DNA of 36,667 nt from a virus: the IMG/VR virus record IMGVR_UViG_3300036830_000285, positions 1 through 36,667 of that record; one strand, 5' to 3'. Below the pieces are notes generated by a model. That model had not been told where the DNA came from. It made no database searches and worked only from the letters and a program-made list of their open reading frames with translations. Shown here in pieces: positions 7,434 through 32,776 of the stretch. How positions within the stretch are numbered: position 1 is the stretch's first letter; the number at the start of each line of letters is the position of its first letter. Both the position numbers and the translations under genes were made by a program.

Positions 7434-9176
7434 ATGTTGTCGAATACGGCGACGCCTAAGTATTACGGGGCGTTCCGTGACGCTGTTCTTCGTGGAGAAA
7501 TTCCGGTAAACCAGGAAATCTCGCTCGAGATGAACCGTATCGACGATCTCATTGCTGACCCGAATTTCTATTACGACGATGCTGCGATTGACGGGTTCAT
7601 CAGGTATTGCGAGAATGAGCTGACGCTTACAGACGGAAGCGATTTTCATTTGCTGGACAGTTTCAAACTGTGGGCAGAATCTCTTCTCGCATGGTTTTAC
7701 TTTGTAGAGCGAAGTGTGTATGTTCCGAATGAAGATGGTCATGGAGGCCACTACATCCGGAAGCGCATCTGCAAGAGACTCGTCAACAAGCAATACTTGA
7801 TTGTCGCACGTGGTGCGGCCAAGTCCATGTACGCGGAATGCGTTCACGCGTACTTTCTGAATGTAGACACTTCAACGACTCACCAGATCACGACTGCTCC
7901 AACTATGAAGCAGGCTGAAGAGGTGATGTCGCCTTTCAGGACCGCTATCACGCGTGCGCGTGGCCCGCTGTTCCAGTTCCTCACTGAAGGATCACTGCAG
8001 AACACGACGGGCTCCAGGGCTATGCGCGTGAAGCTTGCATCCACCAAGAAGGGTGTCGAGAATTTTCTGACAGGCTCTTTGCTTGAAGTCAGGCCTATGG
8101 CTATAGCAAAGCTGCAGGGTTTGCGACCCAAAGTCTCGACGATTGACGAATGGCTGTCAGGCGACTTGCGCGAGGATGTTATTGGCGCACTGGAACAAGG
8201 TGCATCTAAACTTCCTGATTACATAATTGTTGCAACCAGTTCTGAAGGAACAGTCAGGAATGGTTCAGGCGACACTATCAAGCTTGAACTAGCAGACATA
8301 CTTAAAGGCGATTACATCAATCCGCACGTTTCGATCTGGCATTACAAGCTAGATGACATTACAGAAGTTGCTGATCCATCAACCTGGCTCAAGGCTAACC
8401 CTAATCTGGGGAAAACAGTCACTTATGAGACCTACCAGCTAGATGTCGAGCGGGCTGAGGCTGCGCCTGCTTCAAGAAACGATATTCTGGCCAAACGTTT
8501 CGGAATCCCGATGGAAGGTTACACGTATTTCTTTACATACGAAGAAACGCTTCCTCACCGCAGGCGTGAGTTCTGGAAGATGCCTTGTGCTATGGGCGCT
8601 GACCTTTCTCAAGGTGACGACTTTACAGCCTTTACTTTTCTCTTTCCGGTAAGCAATGGCTCATTCGGAGTTAAGACCCGAAGCTATATTTCGAGTCTGA
8701 CAATGTCGAAGCTTCCAGGTGCTATGCGCCAGAAGTACGACGAATTCATTCAGGAAGGCAGCTTGCACGTTCTTGAAGGTGCAGTTCTGGACATGATGGA
8801 AGTCTATGACGATCTGGAACGTTTTATTCTGGATAACGAGTATGACGTCAGAGCTTTCGGGTTTGACCCGTACAATGCCAAAGAATTTGTTACTCGCTGG
8901 GAAGCTGAGAATGGGCCTTTCGGAATAGAGAAAGTGATTCAGGGAGCTCGGACAGAATCTGTTCCTCTTGGTGAACTGAAAGCACTGTCTGGTGAGCGAA
9001 TGCTCATATTTGACCAAGAGCTGATGGGCTTTGCCATGGGTAACGCTATTACCATGGAAGACACCAACGGTAACAGAAAGCTGTTCAAGAGACGCCAGGA
9101 ACAAAAGATCGACAACGTCGCAGCAATGATGGACGCCTATGTGGCGTACAAACTGAACAAGGAGTCATTCGAGTGA
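7434..9176 (+). CDS. terL: terminase large subunit
   Basis: This 580-residue ATPase-nuclease drives DNA into the prohead. ATG follows AAGGAGG. The Walker A variant ARGAAKS lies at residues 125-131 (K130). The Walker B is TIDEW with D238 and catalytic E239. The C-terminal RNase H-like nuclease shows GADLSQGDD (D390), FGFDPYN (D478) and KIDNVAAMMDA (D560) as likely metal ligands. The length is normal for the family. The stop overlaps the GTG of the next gene. No intein or intron is visible. Confidence 0.93.
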   Translation: MLSNTATPKYYGAFRDAVLRGEIPVNQEISLEMNRIDDLIADPNFYYDDAAIDGFIRYCENELTLTDGSDFHLLDSFKLWAESLLAWFYFVERSVYVPNEDGHGGHYIRKRICKRLVNKQYLIVARGAAKSMYAECVHAYFLNVDTSTTHQITTAPTMKQAEEVMSPFRTAITRARGPLFQFLTEGSLQNTTGSRAMRVKLASTKKGVENFLTGSLLEVRPMAIAKLQGLRPKVSTIDEWLSGDLREDVIGALEQGASKLPDYIIVATSSEGTVRNGSGDTIKLELADILKGDYINPHVSIWHYKLDDITEVADPSTWLKANPNLGKTVTYETYQLDVERAEAAPASRNDILAKRFGIPMEGYTYFFTYEETLPHRRREFWKMPCAMGADLSQGDDFTAFTFLFPVSNGSFGVKTRSYISSLTMSKLPGAMRQKYDEFIQEGSLHVLEGAVLDMMEVYDDLERFILDNEYDVRAFGFDPYNAKEFVTRWEAENGPFGIEKVIQGARTESVPLGELKALSGERMLIFDQELMGFAMGNAITMEDTNGNRKLFKRRQEQKIDNVAAMMDAYVAYKLNKESFE

Positions 9177-9421
9177 GCAATCAGAAAGTCACGCAAGCAG
9201 TTCTCGTCTCACAGTCGGCGATGAATCCGCACCAAGGTACCGAGCAGTTCGCGCTCTTCGATGCTTCGGGTACTTCTCTGCCACTGACGGCTGATACGGG
9301 TGCAACGGTCGTCCTGACTGGTTACACGATTCAGTCTGCTGCAGCAGTTGCAGCTACTGATACCGTCAACCACGCAATCGGCAAGCTCGAAGCCCGGATC
9401 GTAGCTCTCGAGTCAGCTTAG
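9173..9421 (+). CDS. small protein resembling a phage head fibre
   Basis: This 82-residue protein starts at GTG 9173, overlapping the terminase stop (GTGA). Residues 1-50 are beta-like with TGATVVLTGY. Residues 60-82 (DTVNHAIGKLEARIVALES) form a short amphipathic helix able to trimerise. This strand-plus-coil plan and its place between terminase and portal fit small head fibre or decoration proteins of actinophages. The role is inferred. Confidence 0.6.
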   Translation: MSNQKVTQAVLVSQSAMNPHQGTEQFALFDASGTSLPLTADTGATVVLTGYTIQSAAAVAATDTVNHAIGKLEARIVALESA

Positions 9422-9460
9422 TTGTTCTGACCCTTCTAGCTTGAAAGGGGGTGATGACGT

Positions 9461-10801
9461 ATCAGTAAACTTACAGATCGTATTAAGGGTGCCTGGAATG
9501 CTTTCAGATTCCAGGACGAACATCCTGAAGTTCTGTCAACTTCATCTGATCTGGGAACGTCTTATACGCATCGTCCGGAACGCAGGCGTCTCCGGTTCGC
9601 TGGCGAGAAGACCATCGTATCTGCGATCTACACCAGAATCGCGATCGATGTAGCAGCGGTTCCTATTCGTCATGTGAGACTTGACGCGAACAGGCAGTAT
9701 CAGGAAGACATAACCAGCGGCCTGAATGATTGCCTGACTGTTGAAGCGAATGTTGATCAAGGTGCTCGTCAGTTCAGGCAGGATCTCGTTCAGACGCTCT
9801 TTGACGAAGGTGTAGCTGCAATTCTTCCCGTTGACACCACGCTGAATCCTTTGACCACAGGAGGATACGATGTCAACAGCATGCGTGTTGGCCGTGTGAT
9901 GCAGTGGTATCCAAGGCACGTTCTCGTCAGGGCGTACAACGATAGCCCGAAGAAAGGTCTTCAGGAAGACGTACTCGTTCCGAAGAGTATGGTCGCTATC
10001 GTGGAGAATCCTCTTTACACAGTGATGAACGAGCCGAACTCAACTCTTCAGCGTTTGCTCAGAAAGCTCAATCTTCTGGATGCTGTTGACGATCAGAGTG
10101 CATCAGGTCAGCTTGATCTCATCATTCAGCTTCCTTACGTCATCAAGACTGAAGCTCGAAGGGCCGAAGCAGATAAGAGACTCAAGGAGATTGAGTTTCA
10201 GCTCAAGGGCTCTCAGTATGGTATCGCCTATGTAGACGGTACCGAAAAAGTCACTCAGCTGAACAGGCCTGCTGAGAACAACTTGATGGGACAGGTTGAG
10301 TATCTTACGAAGATGCTTTATGGCCAGCTGGGTCTCACCGAAGAGGTCATGAACGGAACGGCCGATGAAACCACGATGATTGGCTATTACAACCGGTCGA
10401 TTGAGCCTGTTCTTGGTGCTATTACAGAAGCGATCATAAGAACGTTTCTTACTAAGACGGCTCGTTCACAAGGTCAGTCAGTCATCTACATCAAGAATCC
10501 GTTCACTCTTGTTCCTGTCAAGGAGCTTGCTGAGATTGCTGACAAGTTCACAAGAAACGAAGTTCTTTCTTCCAACGATATGCGCAGTGTTATCGGCTTC
10601 AGACCGTCTACTGATCCGAAGGCCGATAAGCTTCTGAACAAGAACCTGCCCATCGATCAAACGGATCCGACTATTGCTGCTAATGCAGCTAAGGAAGCCG
10701 CGAAAGCGAGGGCTGTACAAAGACCTCCACCACAACAGATGTTGCCCTTCAAGCAAGTCCCGGCAATAACGCAAGGAGTGAATAGTCAAAATGGTAGCTG
10801 A
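9461..10801 (+). CDS. portal protein, apparently starting at ATC
   Basis: The portal forms the ring at the packaging vertex. A conventional caller would start at GTG 9674 (375 residues). However, the frame stays open upstream to a TGA at 9455 and encodes about 71 residues (SKLTDRIKGAWNAFRF, IYTRIAIDVAAVPIRHV) that fit the expected portal N-terminus. No ATG, GTG or TTG lies in that stretch near a ribosome site. The codon 9-10 bases after AAAGGGGG (9444-9451) is ATC 9461, giving 446 residues. Internal portal features include MRVGRVMQWYP, GSQYGIAYVDGTEKVTQLNRP and TEEVMNGTADETTMIGYYNR. It overlaps the capsid gene by 11 bases. A sequencing error at the start codon is the main alternative. Confidence 0.85.
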   Translation: MSKLTDRIKGAWNAFRFQDEHPEVLSTSSDLGTSYTHRPERRRLRFAGEKTIVSAIYTRIAIDVAAVPIRHVRLDANRQYQEDITSGLNDCLTVEANVDQGARQFRQDLVQTLFDEGVAAILPVDTTLNPLTTGGYDVNSMRVGRVMQWYPRHVLVRAYNDSPKKGLQEDVLVPKSMVAIVENPLYTVMNEPNSTLQRLLRKLNLLDAVDDQSASGQLDLIIQLPYVIKTEARRAEADKRLKEIEFQLKGSQYGIAYVDGTEKVTQLNRPAENNLMGQVEYLTKMLYGQLGLTEEVMNGTADETTMIGYYNRSIEPVLGAITEAIIRTFLTKTARSQGQSVIYIKNPFTLVPVKELAEIADKFTRNEVLSSNDMRSVIGFRPSTDPKADKLLNKNLPIDQTDPTIAANAAKEAAKARAVQRPPPQQMLPFKQVPAITQGVNSQNGS

Positions 10802-12788
10802 CTTCTCTGGCTACGTCACCAAGAGCGGGATCAAGTGCTCCGATGGCCGGGTCATCATGGCTCACGCCTTCAAGGGCAACGACCAGCAGCAGGTCCCTCT
10901 CGTGTGGCAGCACCAGCACGATGCCCCGGACAACGTTCTGGGTCACGTTCTCCTGCACAACCGAGCCGACGGCGTCTGGGGTGAGGGTTTCTTCAACGAC
11001 ACCCCTGCCGGCCAGCAGGCCAAGGCGCTCGTGATCCACAAGGACATCAACTCGCTTTCGATCTACGCGAACCAGCTGGTTCAGCAGGCCAAGAACGTTG
11101 TTCACGGTGTGATTCGTGAAGTCAGCCTGGTTCTGTCGGGTGCGAATCCCGGCGCGTTCATCGAGAACATCAACATTGCTCATGGTGACGACATCACCAT
11201 CTCTGAAGACGAAGCCGTGATTTACAGCGGTGAGCCTCTGGAGCACGCCAACATGAGCACGACTGTTTCTGCTCCTCGGCAGATTCAGATGCGTCCCAAG
11301 GGAAACATGCCCTCAGCTCCTGCTGCGGCTGCATCTGGAGGAAGCGGACCTTCTGTCGAAGACGTGTTCAACAGTCTGAGCGACGAGCAGAAGAATGTCG
11401 TCTACGCTCTCGTCGGTGCTTCCGTCCAGCAGGGCGGTATGGGAGACGGCAACAACAACGATCCCACCAACAAGAAGGGCGAAGGCCAAGTGACCCGAAA
11501 CGTCTTCGACAAGAACAACGACGGTGACCCGAAGGCGGGCGGAGCCACTCTGTCGCATTCCGATGCGCAGGAGATCTTCGCCGCGGCCCGCAAGGGTGGT
11601 TCTCTCAAGGAGGCCGTTGAGGAGTACGCGCTTGCTCACGGCATCGACGACATCAGCACCCTGTTCCCGTACGACCAGGCGGTCACCGACACTCCGGAGT
11701 TCATCTCCCGGAGGACTCAGTGGGTCGCCGGCGTTCTGAGCGGTACCCGCAAGACCCCGTTCTCGCGGATTCGCAGCTGGACCGCGGACATCACTCAGGA
11801 CGAAGCCCGGGCCAAGGGTTACATCAAGGGCGACCTGAAGAAGGAAGAGTTCTTCGCGGTGGCCCGGAGGATCACGACCCCTCAGACCATCTACAAGAAG
11901 CAGAAGCTGGACCGCGACGACATCATCGACATCACTGATTTCGATGTCGTGACGTGGCTGCAGACCGAGATGCGTGTCATGCTGGACGAAGAGCTCGCAC
12001 GAGCGATTCTGGTCGGCGATGGCCGTGAGGTGGACGACTCGGACAAGATCAACGCAGCCAACGTCAGGCCGATCCTGGGCGACGACGACATGTACGTGAC
12101 CAACCTCAACATTGATCTGAGCGACGCGGCCAGTTCCGCTGACGAGATCGTGGACCAGGTCGTCACGGCCATGCGATACTACCGCGGCTCGGGCAACCCG
12201 GTTCTGTACACGACTCAGGTGTACCTGTCGAAGATGCTGCTGGCGAAGGACACTCTGGGAAGGCGCCTGTATGGCACCACTCAGGAGCTGTCTGCCGCGC
12301 TGGGTGTCAGCGGGATCGTCACCTGTGAAGCGCTGGAGCAGACTGCAGGTCTCATCGGGATCATCGTCAACCTGTCGGACTACACCATTGGCGCCGACAA
12401 GGGCGGCCAGGTTTCGATGTTCGACTTCTTCGACATCGACTACAACCAGTTCAAGTACCTGATGGAGACTCGGGTCAGCGGCGCCATGACCAAGTACAAG
12501 GGCGCCCTGACGATCATGGAGTTCACCGGCGCCGGCGGCATGCTGCCGAACCCGACCGCTCCGACCTTCGTCAAGACCACTGGTGTCGTCACCATTCCGA
12601 CCACGACTCACGTTACCTACGTGATCGTGGATCCGGACGACGGTACCGAGGGAAGTGCTCTGAGCCCAGGCGCACAGAGCGCCATCTCCGCGGGCGAGTC
12701 CGTCCACATCAGGGCCAAGGCCGCATCGACCTACGCCTTCATGGACGACGCGAACGAGGACTGGATCTTCACCCGCAACGCTAGCTGA
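10791..12788 (+). CDS. capsid maturation protease fused to major capsid protein
   Basis: This 665-residue protein has ATG after AAGGAG. Residues 1-135 are an HK97-type prohead protease: likely His43 in WQHQHDAP, Ser90 in SLSIYA and Glu110 in IREVSLVLSGANPGA. Residues about 150-235 are a Gly/Ala/Asn-rich linker that may serve as scaffold (delta-domain). From about residue 237 (NVFDKN) the HK97-fold capsid follows, with FPYDQAVTDTPEFISRR, MLDEELARAILVGDG and a T-loop-like end. Residues about 590-665 add an Ig-like beta module also found at the end of the tail tube protein. Codon third positions are strongly GC-rich compared with flanking genes, as expected for the most abundant virion protein. 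The protease should release itself during maturation. Confidence 0.9.
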   Translation: MVADFSGYVTKSGIKCSDGRVIMAHAFKGNDQQQVPLVWQHQHDAPDNVLGHVLLHNRADGVWGEGFFNDTPAGQQAKALVIHKDINSLSIYANQLVQQAKNVVHGVIREVSLVLSGANPGAFIENINIAHGDDITISEDEAVIYSGEPLEHANMSTTVSAPRQIQMRPKGNMPSAPAAAASGGSGPSVEDVFNSLSDEQKNVVYALVGASVQQGGMGDGNNNDPTNKKGEGQVTRNVFDKNNDGDPKAGGATLSHSDAQEIFAAARKGGSLKEAVEEYALAHGIDDISTLFPYDQAVTDTPEFISRRTQWVAGVLSGTRKTPFSRIRSWTADITQDEARAKGYIKGDLKKEEFFAVARRITTPQTIYKKQKLDRDDIIDITDFDVVTWLQTEMRVMLDEELARAILVGDGREVDDSDKINAANVRPILGDDDMYVTNLNIDLSDAASSADEIVDQVVTAMRYYRGSGNPVLYTTQVYLSKMLLAKDTLGRRLYGTTQELSAALGVSGIVTCEALEQTAGLIGIIVNLSDYTIGADKGGQVSMFDFFDIDYNQFKYLMETRVSGAMTKYKGALTIMEFTGAGGMLPNPTAPTFVKTTGVVTIPTTTHVTYVIVDPDDGTEGSALSPGAQSAISAGESVHIRAKAASTYAFMDDANEDWIFTRNAS

Positions 12789-13429: not shown

Positions 13430-14302
13430 ATGACAGCACTGGTCTGGGATGACACCGGCAACAAGAGGTACGAGACTGGGGTCGATCACGGGGTCCTTTA
13501 CCCGCTGAATCCCTCTACGGGCCTCTACGACACCGGTTTCGCCTGGAACGGGCTGACTGCCGTCAATGAGAAGCCTGACGGAGCGGCTCCCAACCCGACG
13601 TACGCGGACAACATCAAGTACTCCAACCTTCTGTCGCTGGAGACCTTCGGCGGCACCATCACTGCCTACACCTACCCGGACGAGTTCGGCGCCTGTGACG
13701 GCACCGACACTCCTTCGGCTGGTGTTCAGGTTGGTCAGCAGCCGCGGCAGACGTTCGGTTTGTCCTACCGCACCAAGGTGGGCAACGACCTGTCGGCCGA
13801 GGCGGGGTTCAAACTTCATCTCGTGTACGGAGCTCTCGCGGCTCCGTCGGAGAAGGACTACGCCACGATCAATGACTCGCCGGCCTCGGTCGAGTTCTCG
13901 TGGGACTTCACCACTACACCGGTATCGGCTACCGATCTGCAGCCGACTTCGCTGATCGTGATTGACTCAACGCTGGTCGATCCCGATTCGCTGACCACTC
14001 TCACCGATCTGCTCTACGGCGCGTCCGGAAACCCCGAACTGCCTTCGCCGGACGCCGTCATCGCCCTGTTCGCCGGCGATGTGAACTTCATCACGCTGAC
14101 TGCGCCGACCTTCGACGGTGCGCACACCATCACCATTCCGACCGAAGCCGGCGTGAAGTACTACGTCGACGGAGTTCTGCACGCTGGTGGTTCTCAGCTG
14201 CTGACTTCCGGTCAGAAGAAGGTTGTCACTGCAAGGGCAGACGTCAACTACGTGTTCAACACTCCGTACGTCACGGAGTGGATGTTCACTTACGTCAGCT
14301 AG
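13430..14302 (+). CDS. major tail tube protein with C-terminal Ig-like domain
   Basis: This 290-residue protein has ATG after AGGAGG. Residues 1-215 form the tail tube domain. Marker stretches are GVDHGVLYP, WNGLTAVNE, FGLSYRT, KLHLVYGALAAPS, SWDFTTTPV and LLYG. These recur in the two paralogues at 14856 and 16619. Residues about 224-290 are an Ig-like add-on similar to the end of the capsid protein (APTF, TIPT, W-F-T near the end). GC-rich third positions suggest high expression, supporting its role as the main tube subunit. Confidence 0.85.
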   Translation: MTALVWDDTGNKRYETGVDHGVLYPLNPSTGLYDTGFAWNGLTAVNEKPDGAAPNPTYADNIKYSNLLSLETFGGTITAYTYPDEFGACDGTDTPSAGVQVGQQPRQTFGLSYRTKVGNDLSAEAGFKLHLVYGALAAPSEKDYATINDSPASVEFSWDFTTTPVSATDLQPTSLIVIDSTLVDPDSLTTLTDLLYGASGNPELPSPDAVIALFAGDVNFITLTAPTFDGAHTITIPTEAGVKYYVDGVLHAGGSQLLTSGQKKVVTARADVNYVFNTPYVTEWMFTYVS

Positions 14303-14319: not shown

Positions 14320-14859
14320 ATGCTCCGGCTTAAGATTACCACTGAAGAAGGATTCAACGAGGCGAGCAACGAATTCGTCTCGTCTGACTACACAGTTCTT
14401 GAGCTGGAGCATTCGCTGGTCTCAGTGTCAAAATGGGAGTCCAAATGGGAAATTCCATTCCTGAACACAGACAGTAAGTCTGACGCACAGACACTTGACT
14501 ATGTCAGGATGATGTTTTCCGGAGACGAATTCCCAGAACACCTGATTCCAGTTCTCACAACCGAACATTACCAGCAAATCAACGACTACATCAACGCTAA
14601 GATGACGGCGACATGGTTCAGCGAGCAGCAGAATGCCCAGAGCCGTGAGATCATTACGGCAGAGCTCATCTATTACTGGATGATCGCACTAGGCATACCA
14701 TTCGAATGCCAGAGCTGGCATCTTAACCGTCTTCTGACGCTGATCAAGGTCTGTAACATCAAGAATGCACCTAAGAAGAAGCTCACTTCCGCTGATGCAG
14801 CCAGACGTAACCGTGAAATCAATCAGCAACGCCGAGACCAGATGGGGAGTAAGGGATGA
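14320..14859 (+). CDS. tail assembly chaperone-like protein
   Basis: This 179-residue protein has ATG after AAGGGAGGG. Marker stretches are LELEHSLVSVSKWESKWEIPFL, the helical middle with INDYINAKMTATWF, and ELIYYWMIALGIPFECQSWHLNRLLTLIKVCN. This is a widespread phage family placed between tail tube and tape measure, where chaperones sit. The usual -1 frameshift product is not apparent: the next gene starts in an ATGA overlap and encodes a different family. The Lys/Arg/Gln-rich C-terminus ends the chain. The chaperone role is inferred from family and place. Confidence 0.65.
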   Translation: MLRLKITTEEGFNEASNEFVSSDYTVLELEHSLVSVSKWESKWEIPFLNTDSKSDAQTLDYVRMMFSGDEFPEHLIPVLTTEHYQQINDYINAKMTATWFSEQQNAQSREIITAELIYYWMIALGIPFECQSWHLNRLLTLIKVCNIKNAPKKKLTSADAARRNREINQQRRDQMGSKG

Positions 14860-16610
14860 CTAGAGTTACCTGGGACTCCCTTGGGGAGCGTCTCTATCAC
14901 ACAGGCGTAGACCGCGGCATGCTCTACATTGGCAGCAATGCTGTCCCTTGGAGCGGGCTTGCGAGCGTTACAGAAGCACCAAGCGGAGGAGAACCGCAGC
15001 CGTACTACATTGACGGAGATAAGGTTCTCAACATTCCTTCTGGAGAGGATTTCGGAGCAACGATTGAGGCCTATTCAGCGCCTCTCGAATTCGCTCCATG
15101 TGCCGGCAGGCTTTACCTATCAGAAGGTTTGTATGCGGCAGATCAGCAGAAGCAGACTTTCGGCTTCTCATACCGGACTCTCATCGGTAATGACGTGCAA
15201 GGCGTATCTCTGGGCTACAAGATTCATATTGTCTACAATGCTCTTGCACAGATCTCTGATTTCCTGCACAGCACGATGACCGATGGTCCTTCCGTGCAAA
15301 CTCGTTCGTGGGATGTGACCACGGTTCCGGTCGTATCGGCTGGATTCAGGCCAGTGGCGCATTTTGTCGTCGATACAAGGATTAATACGGCAGATCCAGT
15401 AAGCCAGCTCGAGGATATTCTGTATGGAAGTGACGATGACGATCCTCGTCTTCCTACTCTGGCTGAACTTGCAGATCTGTTCACGTACGAGGAAGTTACC
15501 TGGTGGGATCTGACGGATCTGGATGATTTTCCAGAAGGTGCTGTGGCAGGCGATGCCGGAGTCGACTTTGACTCGGATAATCTGTACACGGAAGACAGAA
15601 CGTTCCAGGCTGCTTTCTGGTGGGACCTTACTGGACTCTCAGATTTCCCAGAAGAAGCACTTATAGGCGACTGGGGAATCGATACAGATACAGGCGACGT
15701 CTTCACCAAACTCGATTACGCCATGGTTACCTGGTGGGATCTGACTGGACTCTCAGATTTCCCCGGGGGAGCTTCTGAAGGTGACCCAGGTATCGATTTC
15801 GAGTCTGACAATCTGTATGCGGACATAAGCGAGAACTCGGCCGCTTATCTGTGGGATTTGACTGGCCTGGACAACTTCCCGTACGAAGCTCCTGTGGGAG
15901 ACTGGGGAATTGACACCGCCGCAGGGTCTGTGTATGAGAAGGAAGCACCTTTCCTGTCTAATGATTTCGAAGAAGGCACTGACGGCGTCACTATGACGAC
16001 AGCCAACTCGGCTGGTACTGGCGAGAACGCTTTCGAAGTTATCACTAACCCGACTACGGGTCAGACAGTCATGTTCAAGAACGATACAGACGTGCACGGT
16101 ACCAAAGCTCTTGAAGTGGCTACTGGTGCTACCGCGTCCACTGCGTTCTTCAGGTGGACGACGTCTGTTGGCTCGCAATCAGAGCTGTGGTGCCGATTCC
16201 TCTTCAAGACAGGCTCAACTCCTGCGTCAAACACCAGAATCTGGCATGCTTATACAGCTTCTGGAGACTGTGCGTCGCTTATTCATACCACTGCGGGAAA
16301 GCTTATTTATGCCAACTCCGCGGGGACTCAGTACACAGGAATGATCACAGACGCAGCTCTTGCCCTGAACACGTACATCAGAATCGAGCTCTATATCAAG
16401 GGAGATGCGACTACAGGAGCTGTCGGATGGAGAATCTATCTCGATCCTGAAGGTCTCGCTCCAGATGATGTGAAGTTCGCACCGGACGTCAATACCACGG
16501 GTCTGGTAGCTAAGGTAGAAGGCGGAAACGCCGGTGCAACCAAGTCAAACAGTGGCCCCTGGAGGTTCAAGGACTTCGCGGTCGGAATTCACGGCTATCT
16601 CGGCCCTTAG
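14856..16610 (+). CDS. second tail-tube paralogue with four GDxGID repeats and a lectin-like domain
   Basis: This 584-residue protein starts in the ATGA overlap. Residues 1-205 share the tube domain with the genes at 13430 and 16619 (GVDRGMLYI, WSGLASVTE, FGFSYRT, KIHIVYNALAQ, SWDVTTVPV, ILYG). Residues about 215-363 are four repeats of about 38 residues (WWDLTGLSDFP, GDxGID, then DNLY or GDVF/GSVY). Residues about 366-584 are a concanavalin-like beta sandwich like those of the fibre at 3299. I infer a specialised tail ring or minor tube protein that carries a sugar- or wall-binding module on the tail surface. Confidence 0.75.
   Translation: MTRVTWDSLGERLYHTGVDRGMLYIGSNAVPWSGLASVTEAPSGGEPQPYYIDGDKVLNIPSGEDFGATIEAYSAPLEFAPCAGRLYLSEGLYAADQQKQTFGFSYRTLIGNDVQGVSLGYKIHIVYNALAQISDFLHSTMTDGPSVQTRSWDVTTVPVVSAGFRPVAHFVVDTRINTADPVSQLEDILYGSDDDDPRLPTLAELADLFTYEEVTWWDLTDLDDFPEGAVAGDAGVDFDSDNLYTEDRTFQAAFWWDLTGLSDFPEEALIGDWGIDTDTGDVFTKLDYAMVTWWDLTGLSDFPGGASEGDPGIDFESDNLYADISENSAAYLWDLTGLDNFPYEAPVGDWGIDTAAGSVYEKEAPFLSNDFEEGTDGVTMTTANSAGTGENAFEVITNPTTGQTVMFKNDTDVHGTKALEVATGATASTAFFRWTTSVGSQSELWCRFLFKTGSTPASNTRIWHAYTASGDCASLIHTTAGKLIYANSAGTQYTGMITDAALALNTYIRIELYIKGDATTGAVGWRIYLDPEGLAPDDVKFAPDVNTTGLVAKVEGGNAGATKSNSGPWRFKDFAVGIHGYLGP
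15501..15945 (+). repeat. four WDLTGLxDFP protein repeats
   Basis: There are four in-frame units of about 111-117 bases. Odd units end in a DSDNLY-type segment and even units in GDWGIDTDTGDVF-type. The array therefore looks like a duplicated pair. GDxGID and DTGxVY motifs recur in phage fibre shafts. Confidence 0.8.
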
Positions 16611-16618
16611 GAGAAAAC

Positions 16619-17353
16619 GTGCGTATAACCTGGGATGGCGACACCCGGCCATATTCCGAAGGAGTCAGTCAAGGTGTTCTTTACCCCGAAAATTCCCCGG
16701 GGGTCGCCTGGAACGGGTTGATTTCAGTTAACGAGAAGGGCGACGACAGTTCAAGTCCGCTTTATATTGACGGGCAGACGTACAGAAACCGGAATGTCCC
16801 TTCGAACCATTCAGGGACTATTATCGCGTATATGTATCCAGACGAGTTCGATATTTACAATGGAGTTTCCCTGAGCAGGACTTCTCAGGGAAGACCTTCT
16901 TTCGGTCTTTGTTACAGGACGAATGAAGAGCTTCATTTGGTCTATAACGCGATTGCTGCGCCGTCAAATGACAAGTATTCGTCAATTGGCGCTGAAATTA
17001 GTCCGGTTTCATTTTCATGGGACTTCACAACTGTACCCGTAAAAATCCCCGGGGGGAAACCTAGCTCACATCTCGTGATCTTGCTCGATCATATTCTGCC
17101 AGGAGTCCTTACGGACCTCGAAACTCTGCTGTATGGAGACGATACGACAGAGCCTTCTCTTCCTGATCCTCAGATACTGATCGACATGTTCGAGTCTCAC
17201 ACGACTCTCATGATCACAGACAACGGCGACGGAACGTGGACCGCTACAGGGCCAGACACGGTCATTACCATGATCGACAGCGACACGTTCGACATCAACT
17301 GGCCTTCTGCGAATTTCATTGACGCAGACACCTACACAATCTACTCACTATGA
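16619..17353 (+). CDS. third tail-tube paralogue
   Basis: This 244-residue protein starts at GTG 16619 after AGGAG. The tube-domain markers are all present: GVSQGVLYP, WNGLISVNE, MYPDEF, FGLCYRT, LHLVYNAIAAPS, SWDFTTVPV and LLYG. The C-terminal 45 residues (MITDNGDGTWTATG, ending YTIYSL) are a small beta module of the kind common in phage and bacterial surface proteins, unlike the additions on the other two paralogues. It sits right before the fibre genes and may form a distinct tail segment or a tail-tip ring. Confidence 0.72.
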   Translation: MRITWDGDTRPYSEGVSQGVLYPENSPGVAWNGLISVNEKGDDSSSPLYIDGQTYRNRNVPSNHSGTIIAYMYPDEFDIYNGVSLSRTSQGRPSFGLCYRTNEELHLVYNAIAAPSNDKYSSIGAEISPVSFSWDFTTVPVKIPGGKPSSHLVILLDHILPGVLTDLETLLYGDDTTEPSLPDPQILIDMFESHTTLMITDNGDGTWTATGPDTVITMIDSDTFDINWPSANFIDADTYTIYSL

Positions 17354-17365
17354 CCGGGAGGTCTG

Positions 17366-18031
17366 ATGGCTGAAGTAACTGGCCTCACGGCCGAAGCAAT
17401 GCAGGCGATTGTCGACGCGACCATTGCGTCAGGATCCGTCGATGGATCGGGTCACCTGATTCTCACCACTCACGGCGGAACCAACATTGATGCTGGAGAC
17501 GTGACGGGTCCGCAAGGTGATGAAGGCCCCACAGGACCTACTGCAGCGGCCCCTACGGGAGCTGTGTGGATGTTCACAGCACCGTCCTCCATTCCTTCCG
17601 GATGGCTGGCTTGTGACGGCTCAGCTGTTTCAAGGACGACATATTCTGACTTGTTCGCCTTGATGGGGACGGCTTATGGCATTGGTGACGGGACTACGAC
17701 TTTCAACGTGCCAAACATGGAAGCTCGTTTCCCAAGACAGCAAGCAGCTTCGGTTGGGTCAACTGGCGGAGCAGCTTCGCACTCTCACCAGATCGATGGC
17801 GGTTCTGTTGACGCTGTGGCTCAGATCGACTTCTTTTCGGCTTCTCCTGCTCCTCTAATCGACATGAAGAGGATCAGTTCGCCTGCATGGGTATCCACAG
17901 TCAGGAAAGCTCTTGCCACATTCAGTGACAGCGGTGATACCGTGACTGATGGAGCAAAGGTTGTGGGACAGACCAAGACCGCATCGGGTCTTCCGCCATA
18001 TCTGAACTTCATATACATCATCAAGACCTAG
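17366..18031 (+). CDS. tail collar domain fibre
   Basis: This 221-residue protein has ATG after GGGAGG. Residues 1-50 include GHLILTTHGGTNIDAGDV, a motif shared with the fibre at 19471. Residues about 48-58 are a short collagen-like GPQGDEGPTGPT. The phage tail collar domain follows (TGAVWMFTAPSSIPSGWLACDG, FNVPNMEARFP, SHSHQIDGG), and the chain ends in PPYLNFIYIIKT. Collar domains are trimeric fibre tips that contact the host surface. This is a short receptor-binding fibre. Confidence 0.85.
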   Translation: MAEVTGLTAEAMQAIVDATIASGSVDGSGHLILTTHGGTNIDAGDVTGPQGDEGPTGPTAAAPTGAVWMFTAPSSIPSGWLACDGSAVSRTTYSDLFALMGTAYGIGDGTTTFNVPNMEARFPRQQAASVGSTGGAASHSHQIDGGSVDAVAQIDFFSASPAPLIDMKRISSPAWVSTVRKALATFSDSGDTVTDGAKVVGQTKTASGLPPYLNFIYIIKT

Positions 18032-18045
18032 TCAGGAGGAACAGA

Positions 18046-19467
18046 GTGACCAAGATATTGCTGGGCAACATCAGAGGTCCTGCTGGGTCTCAGGGCGAAG
18101 GTCTTACCGGTAACGCCATCCAGCATTTCGGCGGGCCCAGCTACACCTATCCGACGTGGTTTGTTGACGGCGGCGGCGTGTGGCAGGATTACCAGGAAGC
18201 AGCGCCGTACATGTCAATCGTCATCGCCAACCCTGCATCAGGGCCTGGCGATACGGCGAACACTGACTACGTCGCTCAGATTCGGCTGATGCGAGCCGCG
18301 GGAATGACTGTGCTTGGCTACATCAGCACGGCGTTCACAGCTAACAGCCAGTCTTCAGTAGAGGCTCAGATCGACGCATGGCATTCGCTGTATGACACTG
18401 AGCTGGCCGATGGAAGCTTCGTCTACATGGACGGGATATTCTTCGACGAGTGCTCTGTCGAGGTCATTCACCAGCCATATTACCAGGCGCTGTGTGATTA
18501 CACGAAATCGAAGCCTGGCAGAGGTCTTGTCCTGATCAACCCGGGCACCACTCCTGACGAGTCGTACATGAGTGCATGCGATATTCTGTGCAACTTCGAG
18601 GGAGACATCGGCCAGTACCGTGGTTTCGCGTCTACTTCGCACTTCATCGACTGGCTGACCACGTATCCGTCGAGCAGGTTTCTTCACGTCGTTTACGGAT
18701 GCTGGGGGACGAAAGAGAGAGACGAAGCACTTCGCCTGTCACGTGAACAGCGCGCCGGACTCGTCTGGATCACGGATGGAACCTTGCCGAACCCGTACGA
18801 CACGGAGCCAGGTTCTCAAGGCGGTCCTCGCAACTCGACTCCTGCCGGCTTGTCATATTTCACGGACATGATCAAGCAGCTGGCGGCGGTATATCCTGAG
18901 GATTCATGGGATCCTGTGGTCGAGGATTCCTGGGAGGGCTTTGACGGTCAGGCTTTCTCGGCACTGTGGACTGTTCCTTCCGGCAGTACTGCCGTGGTTG
19001 CCGGGCAGAAGCTTCAGCTGACTTGCACGACTAGCGGAAACGATCATCTGGATTCTGCGTCAACGTTCAACTTCACTGGTCTTCGTGCGGAAGTCGAAGC
19101 GGTAACGCTTCCTGTGGCTACTAACCCCACAACGCTGATGAAGCTTCAGAAGGATGCCAGCAACTACCTGGCAATAGGCCAGAGTAGCGGAAACCTTCTG
19201 ATGCGTTCCCGTAATGCAGGAAGCAACTCAGACACGACGTTGAGTTATGACGGTTTCAACCACAAGTGGTGGAAGATCAGTCTGGTTTCGGGAACGGCCA
19301 CGTGGTACACCAGCGCAGACGGAGAGACCTGGACTTCAAGGCGCACTGTCAGTTCGAGCTTGCCTGACATGACCGCGGTGACCTATATTCTCTCTACATC
19401 TCGCACAACTGGCTCGAATGAGACCGTCGACTTCGACAACGCCTTGTGCGTGGATGCGGCTGCGTGA
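18046..19467 (+). CDS. tail fibre with spherulin-4-like glycoside hydrolase and lectin-like domain
   Basis: This 473-residue protein starts at GTG 18046 after AGGAGG. Residues 1-15 (TKILLGNIRGPAG) are shared with the gene at 19471 and are probably a tail anchor. Residues about 30-285 match the spherulin-4 family (IVIANPASGPGD, AAGMTVLGYIST, DGIFFDE). That family includes GH135 enzymes such as the Aspergillus Sph3 galactosaminogalactan hydrolase. The expected acidic residues appear: D134 and E135 in FFDE, and E185 in CNFEGD, with spacing similar to Sph3. Residues about 294-473 form a beta sandwich like sugar-binding domains. Inference: a virion depolymerase that cuts a galactosamine-containing or similar exopolysaccharide. 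Confidence 0.8.
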   Translation: MTKILLGNIRGPAGSQGEGLTGNAIQHFGGPSYTYPTWFVDGGGVWQDYQEAAPYMSIVIANPASGPGDTANTDYVAQIRLMRAAGMTVLGYISTAFTANSQSSVEAQIDAWHSLYDTELADGSFVYMDGIFFDECSVEVIHQPYYQALCDYTKSKPGRGLVLINPGTTPDESYMSACDILCNFEGDIGQYRGFASTSHFIDWLTTYPSSRFLHVVYGCWGTKERDEALRLSREQRAGLVWITDGTLPNPYDTEPGSQGGPRNSTPAGLSYFTDMIKQLAAVYPEDSWDPVVEDSWEGFDGQAFSALWTVPSGSTAVVAGQKLQLTCTTSGNDHLDSASTFNFTGLRAEVEAVTLPVATNPTTLMKLQKDASNYLAIGQSSGNLLMRSRNAGSNSDTTLSYDGFNHKWWKISLVSGTATWYTSADGETWTSRRTVSSSLPDMTAVTYILSTSRTTGSNETVDFDNALCVDAAA

Positions 19468-19470
19468 GAC

Positions 19471-20073
19471 ATGCCCAAGATTCTCATCGGCAACATCAAG
19501 GGGCCTGCAGGCGTTTCTGACACGGCCATATTCTTCAAGGGCGCGACGATTGACGTCAACAACCATCTCATTCTCACAAAGGGTGATGGCGGAACAGTTG
19601 ACGTTGGCTCATTCACAACGGCGTTTGTCAAGCATGCTGTGATTGATGGAACTAATCACCTGGTTCTCACGCTGGGTGACGCAAGTACCATCGATCTTGG
19701 CTCAGTCAATCCAGTCGACGACCTGGTTGATCCAGGCCTCACTCTGGTTGCAGCAACGAACTTCTCAGTGACTTCTTTCCAGGCGTACACTGTGGGCCGT
19801 CTTGCATGTGTCGATATTGACCTGACATACAGCGGATCTACGCTCACCAGCTCTTCTTCAGGAAACATCAGCCCAGACACAATCTGTGCCACTCTTCCTG
19901 TTGGGCTGAAGCCGGCATCTGAAGAAGTTCATGCCTATGACAAGGGCGGTGTGGCTTCGGGAGGTGCGTTTATGGAAACCAACGGTGAAATCGTGCTCAA
20001 GACTTTGTCTCCAACTGCGACAATTGCTTCAGGAGACGTGATTCATCTCGGTTTCACATATCTCCTCGCATAA
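19471..20073 (+). CDS. small tail fibre sharing the KILLGNI anchor
   Basis: This 200-residue protein has an ATG four bases after the previous stop, with no clear ribosome site, so it is probably translationally coupled. Residues 1-14 (MPKILIGNIKGPAG) match the start of the gene at 18046. Two copies of a NHLVLTxGDxxTxDLGS motif follow (residues about 30-49 and 60-78), also present once in the gene at 17366. Residues 85-200 form a beta-rich head with a C-terminal GFTYLLA. It is likely a minor fibre. Confidence 0.7.
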   Translation: MPKILIGNIKGPAGVSDTAIFFKGATIDVNNHLILTKGDGGTVDVGSFTTAFVKHAVIDGTNHLVLTLGDASTIDLGSVNPVDDLVDPGLTLVAATNFSVTSFQAYTVGRLACVDIDLTYSGSTLTSSSSGNISPDTICATLPVGLKPASEEVHAYDKGGVASGGAFMETNGEIVLKTLSPTATIASGDVIHLGFTYLLA

Positions 20074-20081
20074 GGAGTCTC

Positions 20082-20462
20082 ATGCTTCAGATCACGTCAA
20101 GAGGCTCTTTCGACCGGACTGACAAATTCCTTGCACGAATACAGAGAGGCGATATTTACAAAGCACTGAACATGTATGCCCAGCAAGGTGTGGCGGCTCT
20201 GGCATCTGTGACTCCGCAAGACACTGGAGCAACGGCAGCGTCGTGGAGTTATGAAATCAAAATTAGCCGTGGGAGTGCGTCTATATTCTGGACCAACTCT
20301 CACATAGATGCGGCCGGAACACCCATCGCCGTTATGCTGCAACATGGTCACGGAACGGGAACCGGCGGGTACGTGCAAGGCAGGGACTACATCAATCCAG
20401 CGATCAGGCCTATATTTGACCAGATCGCCAATGCTGTGTGGAGGGAGGTGACGTCTTCATGA
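20082..20462 (+). CDS. HK97 gp10-like tail or neck component
   Basis: This 126-residue protein has ATG after AAGGAG. It carries FDRTDKFLARI, QGVAALASVTPQDTGATAASW and LQHGHGTGTGGYVQGRDYINPAIRPIFDQI, the signature of the HK97 gp10-like (tail completion or minor structural) family. This family usually sits next to the head-tail connector genes. Here it lies after the fibres and overlaps the tape measure start by four bases (ATGA). Confidence 0.7.
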   Translation: MLQITSRGSFDRTDKFLARIQRGDIYKALNMYAQQGVAALASVTPQDTGATAASWSYEIKISRGSASIFWTNSHIDAAGTPIAVMLQHGHGTGTGGYVQGRDYINPAIRPIFDQIANAVWREVTSS

Positions 20463-23400
20463 GTGGAAGCATCGACGAGCGAATTGTCGAGATGACCTTT
20501 AAGGGTGAGTCTTTCGTTGCCAGTGTTAAAGGCACCGTAGAAGCGCTCTTGAACCTTAAGAACGGCCTGAACAGCCTGAAGGGTTCTGAGAAGGACATCA
20601 ACAATCTGGACGAAGCCGGAAAGCGGTTCTCTCTCAAGGGAATGGCCAATGGTGTTGAGTCCATAGCAGGAAAGTTCAAGACGCTTGGGATTATTGGCGT
20701 CACCGCCCTCGCAACGATTGCCAACAAGGCTGTAAACGCAGGCATATCCATCCTTAAGTCCTTGACGATTGACCCAATCAAGGCGGGTCTGGACGTTTAT
20801 GAGACCAAGATCAATGCAATCAAGACGATCCTTGCGAACACACAGGCACAGGGCACGAATCTCAAGCAAGTTACAGCCGCTCTTAACCAGCTGAACACTT
20901 ACGCCAACAAGACCGTTTACAACTTCGGTCAGATGGCGAAGAACATCGGCACATTCACCGCGGCTGGTGTCGACCTGAAGACTTCGGTAGCCTCAATCAA
21001 GGGCATCGCGAATCTTGCAGCGCTTTCGGGCTCGTCTGCGGAGCAAGCCTCTACCGCGATGTATCAGCTTTCGCAGGCCATCGCTTCAGGTACGGTCAAG
21101 CTTCAGGACTGGAACTCAGTCGTGAATGCTGGCCTGGGCGGTAAGGTATTCCAGAATGCACTTATTCAGACTGCCAAGGTACACGGCGTCGCCATTGATC
21201 AGATGATCAAGAAGGACAAGGGTTTCCGTAATACCTTGCAAGAGGGCTGGCTGACGTCCAAGATTCTGACTCAGACACTTGAGACTTTCACCGGCGATCT
21301 GAGTGCGTCTCAGCTGAGAGGTCTCGGATATTCTGAGAAGCAGACTCAGGCGATTCTGAAGCAGGCCAAAGCAGCTCAGTCTTCAGCAACTGATATCCGG
21401 ACGCTGACTCAGCTGCATCAGGCCCTTGCTGAGGAAGTTGCAACTGCCTGGTCTCGTGTCTGGGAAGCTGTAATCGGAAACGTTACCGACGCTACAGCTA
21501 CCTTGTCCAAGGTTCACAACGTTCTTGAGAACGCCTTCACAGGGCCACTTAACAACTTCTCTAAGCTTCTCACTGAATGGGACAAGCTCGGTGGCAGAGA
21601 TGAACTTATCCAGGCCATTGGCGATGCATTCAGGAACCTTGGCCAGATCCTTGGTACTATCGGCTCGGCCTTCAGGGAAGTCTTCCCGCCAGTCACTGCC
21701 TTGACATTGGTCAAAATGACAGTAGCTCTCGAGAAGTTTGTCGAGAAGCTCAGACTCAGCAGTCAGGGAGTCAAGGATCTCAAGGCCACCTTTGTAGGCA
21801 TATTCTCGGTCGTAAAGATCGTCTTCGACATTATCGGTGGCCTAGTCAAGACGCTGTTCACTTTGTTCGGCGCGGTTGCAAGCGGTGGGGGAAGTTTCCT
21901 GAGTTTGACCGCCAGGATAGGGAATTTCCTGTCCAAAGTGCGTCAAACAATCGAATCTGGCGGTGCTCTGACCAAGTTCTTCCAAATCCTTGGTAAAGTG
22001 CTGTCTTTCCCGATCAAGGTGATCGTTGCGATCATCGGAGCACTTGGCGGACTGAGTGGTGCCTTCAACAAGGTAATCGCAGCTGTTTCTCCGTTCGTGC
22101 AGAAGATCGGGCAGGAGTTCTCTAAGCTCGCCGGTGCGGTTACTCAGGGCATTGAGAGCGGGAACTTCAGCGCTGTAACAGGCGTCATCAATCAGCTTCT
22201 TCTTGGCGGAATCCTGGTAGCAATCAGGAAGTTCATCAAGAACCTTGGGTCGGCCGGCGGTGGCGGAGGTCTCTTCAGCACCATCAAGGAGTCTTTCGAG
22301 TCGCTGACACACACCTTGGTGACCATGCAGACTAGTCTTAAGGCTGGTATTCTGCAGAAGATTGCCATTGCTGTAGCTCTTCTGGCGGCTTCTTTGCTGG
22401 TTCTGTCGCTTATCGACGTGAAGAACCTGACCAAGGCCCTGACTGCTATAACAGCACTGTTCATTCAGCTTCTGGCTGCAATGGCTGTGGTGATCAGAGT
22501 TGGAGGCTCTGCTGGCATCCTCAAAATGGAAGCTATCGCAATAGCCCTGAATCTTCTGGCCACAGCGATAGTTATCCTTGCAGGAGCAGTAGCTATTCTT
22601 GCTCAGTTCAGCTGGGAACAGCTGGCCAAGGGTCTGTCGGCTATTGCTGTGCTTCTGCTTGAGCTCGTCGTGGCGACAGCACTGATGTCCAAGGATTCTG
22701 TGGGCCTTATTGCCACAGCATATTCCATGGAAGTCATGGCTGTAGCACTCAACGTGCTGTCTCTGGCAGTTGGCCGGCTCGGAAAGCTGAGTCTCGCGAA
22801 CCTTGCCAAGGGAATAGGCTCAATTGCTCTTCTTCTGGCAATTCTTGCTGGATTCAACAAGATCAGCGGTGTGCAGCTAATTGGCACTGCTGTTTCCATG
22901 GCAATTCTTGGTGTGGCACTTAACATCATAGCCAGAGCTGTGGAGAAGCTTGGAGCTTTGTCTCCGGCTACCTTGGCCAAGGGTCTTGTGTCCATCGCAG
23001 CGGCGTTGCTCATCATTGCCGCGGCCATGAACTTGATGCCTCCGAGCATGATCGCTACGTCTCTGGGTCTGCTTCTTGTCGCGTCGGCACTGGTCATAAT
23101 CGCTGATGCCCTTGACAAGATGGGTGGTCAGTCTGTTGGGTCGATAGCCAAGTCGCTTATCGTCCTGGCGGCTTCACTGGCTATTATTGCCGCGGCCATG
23201 TTCCTGATGTCTGGAGCACTGCCCGGAGCTGCCGCCTTGCTGGTGGTAGCCGCTTCTCTGGCTATCCTGACCCCGGTTCTGGTAGCACTGGGAGCTCTTT
23301 CCTGGTCAGCAATCGCCAAGGGACTGACTGCACTTGCGGCTGTTTTCCTGATAATTGCCGCGGCGGGAATTCTGCTCACACCTCTTATCCCGACACTGCT

Positions 23401-27109: not shown

Positions 27110-27436
27110 GTGACATTCAGCAACAAGATCTACAACCTTCTCAAGCCAATCGCCTTGATCTGGCTTCCTGGTGCAGCAACGCTCTACGCAGCTGTAGCAG
27201 GCATCTGGGGTCTGGGCTTTGTCGAGCAAGTCGTGGGAACAGTGTCGGCCATCGACACCTTCCTTGGTGTGGCTCTGCATCTGTCGTCTTCGTCCTACAC
27301 ACCGCCGTCAGACGGCAAGCTGGAGATCGACAAGTCTGATCCAGCCAAGGACACATATTCACTGGTGCTCTCGACGCCTGTGTCTGAGCTTCAGAGTAAA
27401 GACACAATGACGCTCAAGGTGACACCTAAGGCCTGA
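27110..27436 (+). CDS. r1t-type holin
   Basis: This 108-residue protein has GTG 27110 after AGAGAGGA. Two hydrophobic segments lie at residues about 12-32 (IALIWLPGAATLYAAVAGIW) and 37-58 (VEQVVGTVSAIDTFLGVALH), with WGLGFVEQVVGTVSAIDTFL being the hallmark of the lactococcal phage r1t holin family. It has a longer soluble tail of about 50 residues ending in a beta-like KDTMTLKVTPKA. It should release the endolysin. A promoter-like motif follows directly after its stop. Confidence 0.82.
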   Translation: MTFSNKIYNLLKPIALIWLPGAATLYAAVAGIWGLGFVEQVVGTVSAIDTFLGVALHLSSSSYTPPSDGKLEIDKSDPAKDTYSLVLSTPVSELQSKDTMTLKVTPKA

Positions 27437-28183: not shown

Positions 28184-28966
28184 ATGACCATGCCAATTTG
28201 GCTGCGCCGTGCAGGCCAGTCCATGAACCAGAGCTCCCCCACAATTCTGTCGGGTCTTGCGGTTGGCGGAGTTATCGCTACTGCAATTCTTGCAGCCAAG
28301 GCCACTCCCAAGGCCATCGAGAAGATCCAGGAAGCCCGCAGCAAGTGGGTTGGCTCGGATGCCTGGGTCGAGGGAGAGAAGTTCCCGGCCACAGAAAAAG
28401 TGAAGGCATGCTGGAAGGTCTATATTCCGGCTGCGATCACAGGCACCGCTACGGTCGGCTGCATTATCGGCGCAAACCAGGTCGGCATGAGGCGGAATGC
28501 TGCCCTTGTCGGAGCCTACACGCTGGCCGATACTGCCTTCCGTGAGTACAAGCAGGAAGTTCTCGAGCAGCTGGGAGTCACCAAAGAGCGGAAAGTCACC
28601 GACGCCGTCGCCAAGCAGGCCATAGATGATCACCCTGTGAGTAGCACGCAGGTGATCATTACGAAGGGCGGTGAGAACCTTTGCTACGACTCCCTAACCG
28701 GGAGGTACTTCAAAAGTGACATCGAAACCATTCGCCAGGCTGAGAACGAAATCAACCGCCGAATTGTCGGCGGCGATATGTACGCAAGCCAGAACGAGTT
28801 CTATGGCCTTCTCGGCCTGGCTAATGTCATTGTTGGCGACGAACTGGGATGGAACCTCGAGAACTTCATCGAGCTCATCTTCACCTCACATCTGGCCGAC
28901 GATGGGCAACCCTGCCTTGCCGTGGGGTATGCGCGTCTTCCAAGGCGTGATTACGGCAAGTTCTAG
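28184..28966 (+). CDS. DUF6353-like membrane protein
   Basis: This 260-residue protein has ATG after AGAGGAAAA. Two hydrophobic segments: residues about 19-38 (PTILSGLAVGGVIATAILAA) and about 80-101 (YIPAAITGTATVGCIIGA). Between them is a charged helix (KATPKAIEKIQEARSKW). The C-terminal half is soluble (RRNAALVGAYTLADTAFREYK, later YASQNEFYGLLGLANVIVGDELGWN). It is paralogous to the gene at 31907. The family is frequent in actinophages and of unknown function. Inference: an inner-membrane protein made during infection. Confidence 0.7.
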   Translation: MTMPIWLRRAGQSMNQSSPTILSGLAVGGVIATAILAAKATPKAIEKIQEARSKWVGSDAWVEGEKFPATEKVKACWKVYIPAAITGTATVGCIIGANQVGMRRNAALVGAYTLADTAFREYKQEVLEQLGVTKERKVTDAVAKQAIDDHPVSSTQVIITKGGENLCYDSLTGRYFKSDIETIRQAENEINRRIVGGDMYASQNEFYGLLGLANVIVGDELGWNLENFIELIFTSHLADDGQPCLAVGYARLPRRDYGKF

Positions 28967-31906: not shown

Positions 31907-32776
31907 ATGAACTCACCAAGATTCGCAACCCGGGCCGTCGGCTCAACGAAGTTCTTCCTCAACAAGAACGGCCCCACGATCCTGACTGGTGCCGGCGTGG
32001 TGGGTTTCGTCGCAACCACCGCTCTGACCGTCATCGCCACAAGGAAAGCTGAGCTGAAGTTCGCCGAGGCCGAAGGCAAGATCAAGCAAGCCAGAATCAT
32101 CTCTACGATCGAAGAAGATGACGACCGGCAGAAGGCTCAGCGCCTGGTCAAGGCCTATGCCGAAGGCGGCATGATCCTTGCAAGGACCTATGCTCCGCCG
32201 CTCATCATCGGCTCGGCTTCCATCGTCTGCATCCTGAGCGCTCACGGCATGATGCTTAAGCGCCAGGCAAGCCTGCTGGCCGCCTACACGGCCCTGGACG
32301 CCGGCTACAAGGCCTACCGCAAGCGTGTGGTGGAGAAGATCGGGGAGGAGGAAGAGGAGGCTCTGTACCGCAATGTGCGGGCCATAGAGAGCTTCAATGA
32401 GCTGGGGGAGGCTTGTGAGATCATCGATCCCGCCAATATCCCGCCATCGCCGTACGCCAGGTTCTTCGACGAAGCCAGCAGAAACTGGACGAAGACCCCG
32501 GAGTACAACCTGCTCTTTCTTCGCAGTCAGCAGGACTGGGCTAATGACCGCCTGCGAGCATATGGATATGTCTTCCTGAACGAGGTCTATGAGGCGCTGG
32601 GCCTGGAACGTTCTCAGGCCGGCCAGATCGTGGGCTGGAAGCTCAAAGGAGACGGAGACGGGTTCGTCGACTTCGGACTCTATTCGATCGGGGACGAGGG
32701 AAACCGTGCGTTCGTGAATCTCATCGAGCACACTGTTCTCCTCGACTTCAACGTCGACGGCCCGATAAGGATCTGA
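31907..32776 (+). CDS. DUF6353-like membrane protein, paralogue of the gene at 28184
   Basis: This 289-residue protein has ATG after AAGAGAG. Matching blocks to the gene at 28184: PTILTGAGVVGFVATTAL, IATRKAELK, YAPPLIIGSASIVCILSAHG and RQASLLAAYTALDAGYKAYRKRVVEKIG. Two membrane segments are conserved. The C-terminal region (LLFLRSQQDWANDRLRAYG, GLERSQAGQIVGWKLKGDG) is related in plan but has diverged and is longer. The function is unknown. It lies in a three-gene run with 32778 and 33521. Confidence 0.7.
   Translation: MNSPRFATRAVGSTKFFLNKNGPTILTGAGVVGFVATTALTVIATRKAELKFAEAEGKIKQARIISTIEEDDDRQKAQRLVKAYAEGGMILARTYAPPLIIGSASIVCILSAHGMMLKRQASLLAAYTALDAGYKAYRKRVVEKIGEEEEEALYRNVRAIESFNELGEACEIIDPANIPPSPYARFFDEASRNWTKTPEYNLLFLRSQQDWANDRLRAYGYVFLNEVYEALGLERSQAGQIVGWKLKGDGDGFVDFGLYSIGDEGNRAFVNLIEHTVLLDFNVDGPIRI

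Follow-up and report, generated by a model that had tools for sequence, protein, structure and literature searches.

The gene at 18046-19467 of the window (the whole stretch of viral DNA analysed here, 36,667 nucleotides) encodes a tail-region protein of three modules: a short N-terminus of phage-fibre type, a central GH135 barrel and a C-terminal jelly roll. The presence of a GH135 domain, an anchor motif and a sandwich in this open reading frame is confirmed as real and not a product of chance, and the assignment of the middle domain to GH135, in both family and fold, is practically certain. Its sequence family and predicted fold, the conservation of the catalytic residues, the position in the tail module and the shared modules lead us to suggest that the protein is probably a tail-attached, virion-borne GH135 endo-glycosidase which, aided by a glycan-holding jelly roll, would cut the outer glycan of the host before DNA injection.

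The Gene and Its Tail Module

The window is a virus record with terminase, portal and protease-capsid fusion genes, and it also encodes Dit and a Sipho_Gp37-like protein. Its tail genes run in the order three major-tail-protein paralogues, collar fibre, GH135 gene, 200-aa gene, tail completion gene and tape measure gene. The first-pass annotation had described the product as a virion protein, and the placement of the gene agrees, lying in the tail module between major tail protein and tape measure. The features discussed below are the following.

16619-17353, + strand: last of three major-tail-protein paralogues (phrog_2645, E 7e-61)
17366-18031, + strand: tail fibre with collar domain, opening the slot (Pfam Collar, E 2e-21)
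18046-19467, + strand: whole gene, 473 aa, three-module tail protein (ORF, profile search)
18046-18081, + strand: N-terminal MTKILLGNIRGP, phage-fibre start motif, putative attachment (common to ORF 19471 and prophage fibres)
18121-18831, + strand: GH135 (Spherulin4) TIM barrel, residues about 26-262 (Pfam 31-253, AF2 model, Z to Sph3)
18445-18450, + strand: putative nucleophile D134, with E135 (aligned with Sph3 D166/E167)
18598-18600, + strand: putative acid/base E185 (aligned with Sph3 E222)
18898-19464, + strand: concanavalin-like jelly roll, residues 285-473, putatively glycan-binding (AF2, fold match, viral homologues)
19471-20073, + strand: 200-aa protein with MTKILLGNIRGP-type N-terminus, resembling minor tail proteins of Streptomyces phages in its C-terminal half
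20082-20462, + strand: tail completion protein, closing the slot on the right (phrog_5, E 1e-12; homologues in 242 phage records)
20438-24667, + strand: tape measure protein (phrog_4372, 1347 bits)

The reading frame opens with GTG, preceded by an AGGAGG Shine-Dalgarno sequence at 18034-18039, six bases upstream; a full-length homologue in another IMG/VR contig, 84% identical, has ATG at the same start position. DGIFFDE occupies residues 129-135 (codons 18430-18450), and on re-reading of the frame the coordinates and residues named at first pass, this motif and E185, proved exact. Promoter and terminator patterns in 16500-20600 were no more frequent than in shuffled sequence.

No phage record showed DNA similarity across the whole region, and the phage group was therefore placed by protein similarity. 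The nearest counterparts of the window's tape measure and major tail protein belong to the Streptomyces phages Rimavirus, Bingvirus and Scapunavirus, with more distant tail relatives among Arthrobacter, Gordonia and Lactococcus 1706-like phages; the GC content of the window is about 53%. We thus regard the phage as a Rimavirus/Bingvirus-like actinophage and its host as likely Streptomyces-like, since its closest tail relatives are mostly Streptomyces phages, which lends indirect support to the host proposed earlier.

In ten related phages, the genes that separate the second major tail protein from tail completion are variable, and nearly all ten share, in their first slot protein, the 45-50 residues with which the collar fibre of the window begins (blastp). 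Rima gp21, in this slot, is a GH46 chitosanase (Pfam 1.2e-50). Slot genes of the Gordonia phages Odesza and Secretariat are annotated as lysin B, and two of Arthrobacter phage JEGGS as esterase, in each case with weak Pfam support. Thus, a polysaccharide hydrolase at this location has good precedent.

Other parts of the window merit description. The paralogous major tail proteins stand in tandem (13430-14302, 14856-16610 and 16619-17353), the second carrying a C-terminal extension of about 370 residues, and a comparable arrangement is found in Microbacterium phage Damascus (gp17, 19 and 20). DUF6353, a family of unknown function, occurs twice (28184-28966 and 31907-32776), and 3299-6781 encodes a 1160-aa protein, without PHROG match and with a weak match to the DUF5907 repeat, possibly a large virion protein.

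The Central GH135 Barrel

The Pfam family Spherulin4 (PF12138) matches residues 31-253 over profile positions 5-227 of 239, with E 3e-34 and 119 bits (cut-off 30.2). Among PDB sequences, phmmer retrieved the fungal Sph3, a hydrolase of galactosamine-rich polysaccharide (5D6T, E 7e-12; 5C5G, E 1.1e-11), and otherwise a single match at E 0.6. The Sph3-like membership proposed from the letters alone is upheld by both searches. Given 49 aligned homologues, taken from the window, viral contigs and the genomes of bacteria and archaea, AlphaFold2 returned a model with eight strand/helix repeats and pLDDT of about 90-99 across most of the barrel core. Foldseek placed 5C5G and 5D6T at the top (E 1e-14; next entry 4e-5), and VIA-align gave Z 25.4 over 227 residues at 2.4 A to both, followed by a chitinase-like protein (Z 15.1), GH191 galactosaminidases (about 14) and GH166 PelA (about 13). 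Structure prediction and comparison with Sph3 had been named beforehand as the check on a TIM barrel; the predicted structure shows the barrel, with Sph3 as the best match.

In the phmmer alignment D134, E135 and E185 stand opposite Sph3 D166, E167 and E222, with the Sph3 residue numbers derived from the chain offset. All 49 homologues, whether phage, bacterial or archaeal, carry D134 and E185, and likewise N62, Y92 and N165, while E135 is Glu in 32 and replaced in the other 17, including those of phages L108 and L015. In the model D134 terminates strand 130-134 and E185 falls within strand 180-187. The correspondence with the acidic residues of Sph3, first noticed by eye, is thereby made precise. 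The catalytic roles of D166 and E167 in Sph3 are taken as generally understood, and from PMC12054363. The catalytic aspartate is printed there as Asp196 (PMC12054363), which we take as a probable misprint for 166, because chain position 196 is an unconserved loop residue.

The N-Terminus and the Jelly Roll

The start MTKILLGNIRGP recurs in the next gene, ORF 19471 (11 of 14 residues, blastp), and MTKILLGNxxGP begins the collagen-like fibre proteins of the unrelated prophages L168-L171 and L173. When 2.9 million viral contigs were scanned with a degenerate DNA pattern for MTKILLGNIRGP, its matches were confined to this phage type and to the starts of collagen-like proteins in five prophage contigs. 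The collagen-like gene of L168, the one checked, has minor tail and tail fibre genes as neighbours. A tblastn search of phage records with the 30-residue N-terminus gave one weak tail-fibre match (E 1), less informative than the pattern scan, and a simple hydrophobicity rule detected no signal-like segment in the window protein. A tail anchor had been proposed ahead of the enzyme; the likeness to collagen-like prophage fibre starts agrees, and these data support reading the short motif as a putative attachment to the tail.

Modelled from a separate alignment of 23 sandwich sequences, residues 285-473 form a jelly roll with mean pLDDT 89. In the full-length model residues 282-363 and the end are of low confidence, because the first alignment held few sandwich sequences. 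The fold is close (Z about 19) to GH16 lichenase and to the C-terminal domain of GH43 xylosidases. GH16 activity was considered: the fold fits, but the ExDxxE catalytic motif is absent from the translation. Homologues occur in 41 other viral loci, and in Streptomyces phage Ponzi the jelly roll comes after a GH46 chitosanase domain. The sugar-binding sandwich described after the enzyme is thus real as a predicted sandwich, and glycan binding is a role that we infer for the modelled domain.

Viral and Cellular GH135 Domains

Two scans of viral contigs gave about a dozen distinct GH135 loci, every one above the Pfam cut-off. The GH135 gene directly follows the major tail protein in L011, follows the tape measure in L013 and L108, stands between the tape measure and a Dit-like gene in L104, and comes after a tail-spike-like gene in L106. 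By the simple hydrophobicity rule, a signal-like segment precedes GH135 in 67 of 79 cellular homologues versus 2 of 14 viral ones. In the phylogeny the window domain belongs to a group of 10 made up of viral members only (support 97/95), with other viral domains elsewhere; the viral label requires five changes, and GH135 is therefore likely to have been captured by viruses more than once.

Some phage proteins already bear the database label "Spherulation-specific family 4". In the only paper on viral spherulin-4 that our literature search returned, the genes of Atacama viruses were described as auxiliary genes for sporulation and extremotolerance (PMC8269230); the search found no tests of viral spherulin-4 proteins. 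Tail context argues against a sporulation reading for most of the viral GH135 loci listed above.

Some of these loci are unusual in architecture. In L015 (record G088), 7917-10988 encodes a single protein in which a Sipho_Gp37/minor-tail-like domain is joined to a pair of GH135 domains, the first of the pair with Arg at the E135 position, and another open frame of the record holds two further GH135 domains. The viral record L111 (G094) has three separate Spherulin4 domains, while L011 6793-9582 encodes 929 aa comprising GH135 and a long C-terminal region resembling a parallel beta-helix tail spike. In Streptococcus phage VA460, a dairy phage, an unannotated GH135-like gene (L005 4842-6131; tblastn E 2e-7) adjoins holin and amidase genes.

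Function of the Protein

We suggest that the short phage-fibre N-terminus would attach the protein to the particle of an actinobacterial siphophage, and that the central barrel may act as a retaining endo-glycosidase, with D134 as nucleophile and E185 as acid/base, on an amino-sugar polysaccharide of the host surface. The C-terminal jelly roll would hold the glycan, and together the two could open a path through the outer glycan layer of the host before DNA injection. Incorporation in the virion, activity, the substrate class and this step of infection are what we infer. Taken separately, association with the virion is very likely, and enzymatic activity of the GH135 domain only slightly less so. 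Sph3 is membrane-bound and itself works in the synthesis of galactosaminogalactan, or GAG (PMC12054363), so that the fold by itself is no proof of a depolymerase role; for that role, proposed at first pass, the support is indirect. Our literature search, incomplete in coverage, found no paper on a phage GH135 depolymerase.

Receptor-binding proteins of phages often keep enzyme folds. The barrel could be an adhesin that in the phage has lost turnover, or never had it, and only binds a surface glycan, the jelly roll providing a second site. The replacement of E135 in a third or so of the homologues, those of L108 and L015 among them, is in line with such a role, as is the wide occurrence among phages of the jelly roll, which lacks the catalytic motif of GH16. 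Yet in the window protein none of the three catalytic positions of Sph3 is lost, two of them (D134 and E185) are invariant among the homologues, and Rima has an enzyme domain in the homologous slot; we therefore consider an adhesin unlikely. Less probable still is an auxiliary gene whose product would be made in the infected cell, altering for instance sporulation or a host surface polymer. This is the role suggested in print for the Atacama proteins (PMC8269230), and a Spherulin4 domain of their own in 56 of 81 Streptomyces-genus genomes means that its substrate may matter to the host. Nonetheless, the window gene lies in the tail module, its product starts like a phage fibre and lacks a signal-like segment, and relatives are fused to tail proteins. 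Context and architecture point to the virion, and they accord better with an appendage of the particle that would cut glycan than with a part in sporulation as published. Least probable, and very remote, is an enzyme of lysis or release, cutting the glycan of wall or capsule as infection ends, as the neighbours of the VA460 gene might suggest, given that the GH135 gene of the window is inside the tail operon and the holin-like (27110-27436) and endolysin-like (1238-2083) genes are both outside it.

Substrate and Significance

For the virion-borne glycosidase that we favour, a GAG-like polymer of GalNAc/GalN is a tentative proposal for the substrate, a guess at the level of the family. Sph3 prefers acetylated GAG (PMC12054363, PMC11356417). 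The Spherulin4 domains of the 56 Streptomyces-genus genomes suggest that the GH135 substrate class is probably present in the Streptomyces world. The first-pass annotation had gone further, stating that Streptomyces makes related surface polysaccharides, and this found no support: the surface glycans of Streptomyces described in the papers searched are beta-1,6-GlcNAc (MatAB) and a CslA glycan (PMC5972031, PMC7300013), and the 81 genomes held no convincing PelG (PF16933). The literature searched yielded neither a report of a Streptomyces GalNAc polymer nor a description of a GH135-cleavable polymer in the presumed hosts. PelG candidates in 5 of the 81 genomes, just above the cut-off, were rejected, as they matched profile positions 321-445 only, within open frames of 1192-2138 aa. 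The PelG result lowers the standing of a Pel-like polymer as substrate, with the reservation that the host genus is uncertain.

Phage depolymerases are well known; the new element is a GH135 domain in this tail slot. More speculatively, GH135 may be a recurrent, overlooked class of virion depolymerase misread as sporulation genes, the actinophage slot may be an exchangeable one for hydrolases fitted to the envelope of each host, and an actinomycete polymer of GalNAc/GalN not yet described would be implied; we hold this broader view as possible, at somewhat less than even chances. Very few members of the GH135 family are characterised (PMC12054363). If active, the protein would be the first phage GH135 enzyme as far as our literature search goes, could serve as a tool against galactosamine-containing biofilm polymers, and through its natural substrate would point to a so far undescribed surface glycan of actinomycetes. 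The virion reading can also be put to the test against the published view of viral spherulin-4 as a sporulation aid to hosts.

Comparison with Known Systems

With Aspergillus Sph3 (5C5G, 5D6T), the founding enzyme of GH135, the window protein shares the family by profile and predicted fold at 23-25% identity. It differs in its phage N-terminus and jelly roll, in having no membrane anchor, and in a small insert ahead of DGIFFDE, at about residues 117-127, which in the alignments made is common only to the window protein and its 84% identical relative. The viral spherulin-4 proteins (those of L011, L104, L107 and L015, gp21 of Rothia phage Spartoi, entries in BFVD, and those of the Atacama viruses, PMC8269230) likewise carry GH135, often in or beside tail genes, yet with different anchors and C-terminal modules. 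Rima gp21 occupies the same slot as the window protein and, like Ponzi gp58, pairs an amino-sugar hydrolase with a related jelly roll. In both, however, the catalytic domain is GH46; the sandwich of Rima gp21 precedes the catalytic domain, and the Ponzi gene is located after the minor tail genes. With phage tail depolymerases in general, the protein has in common its tail-gene context and the combination of an enzyme with a putative glycan-binding module.
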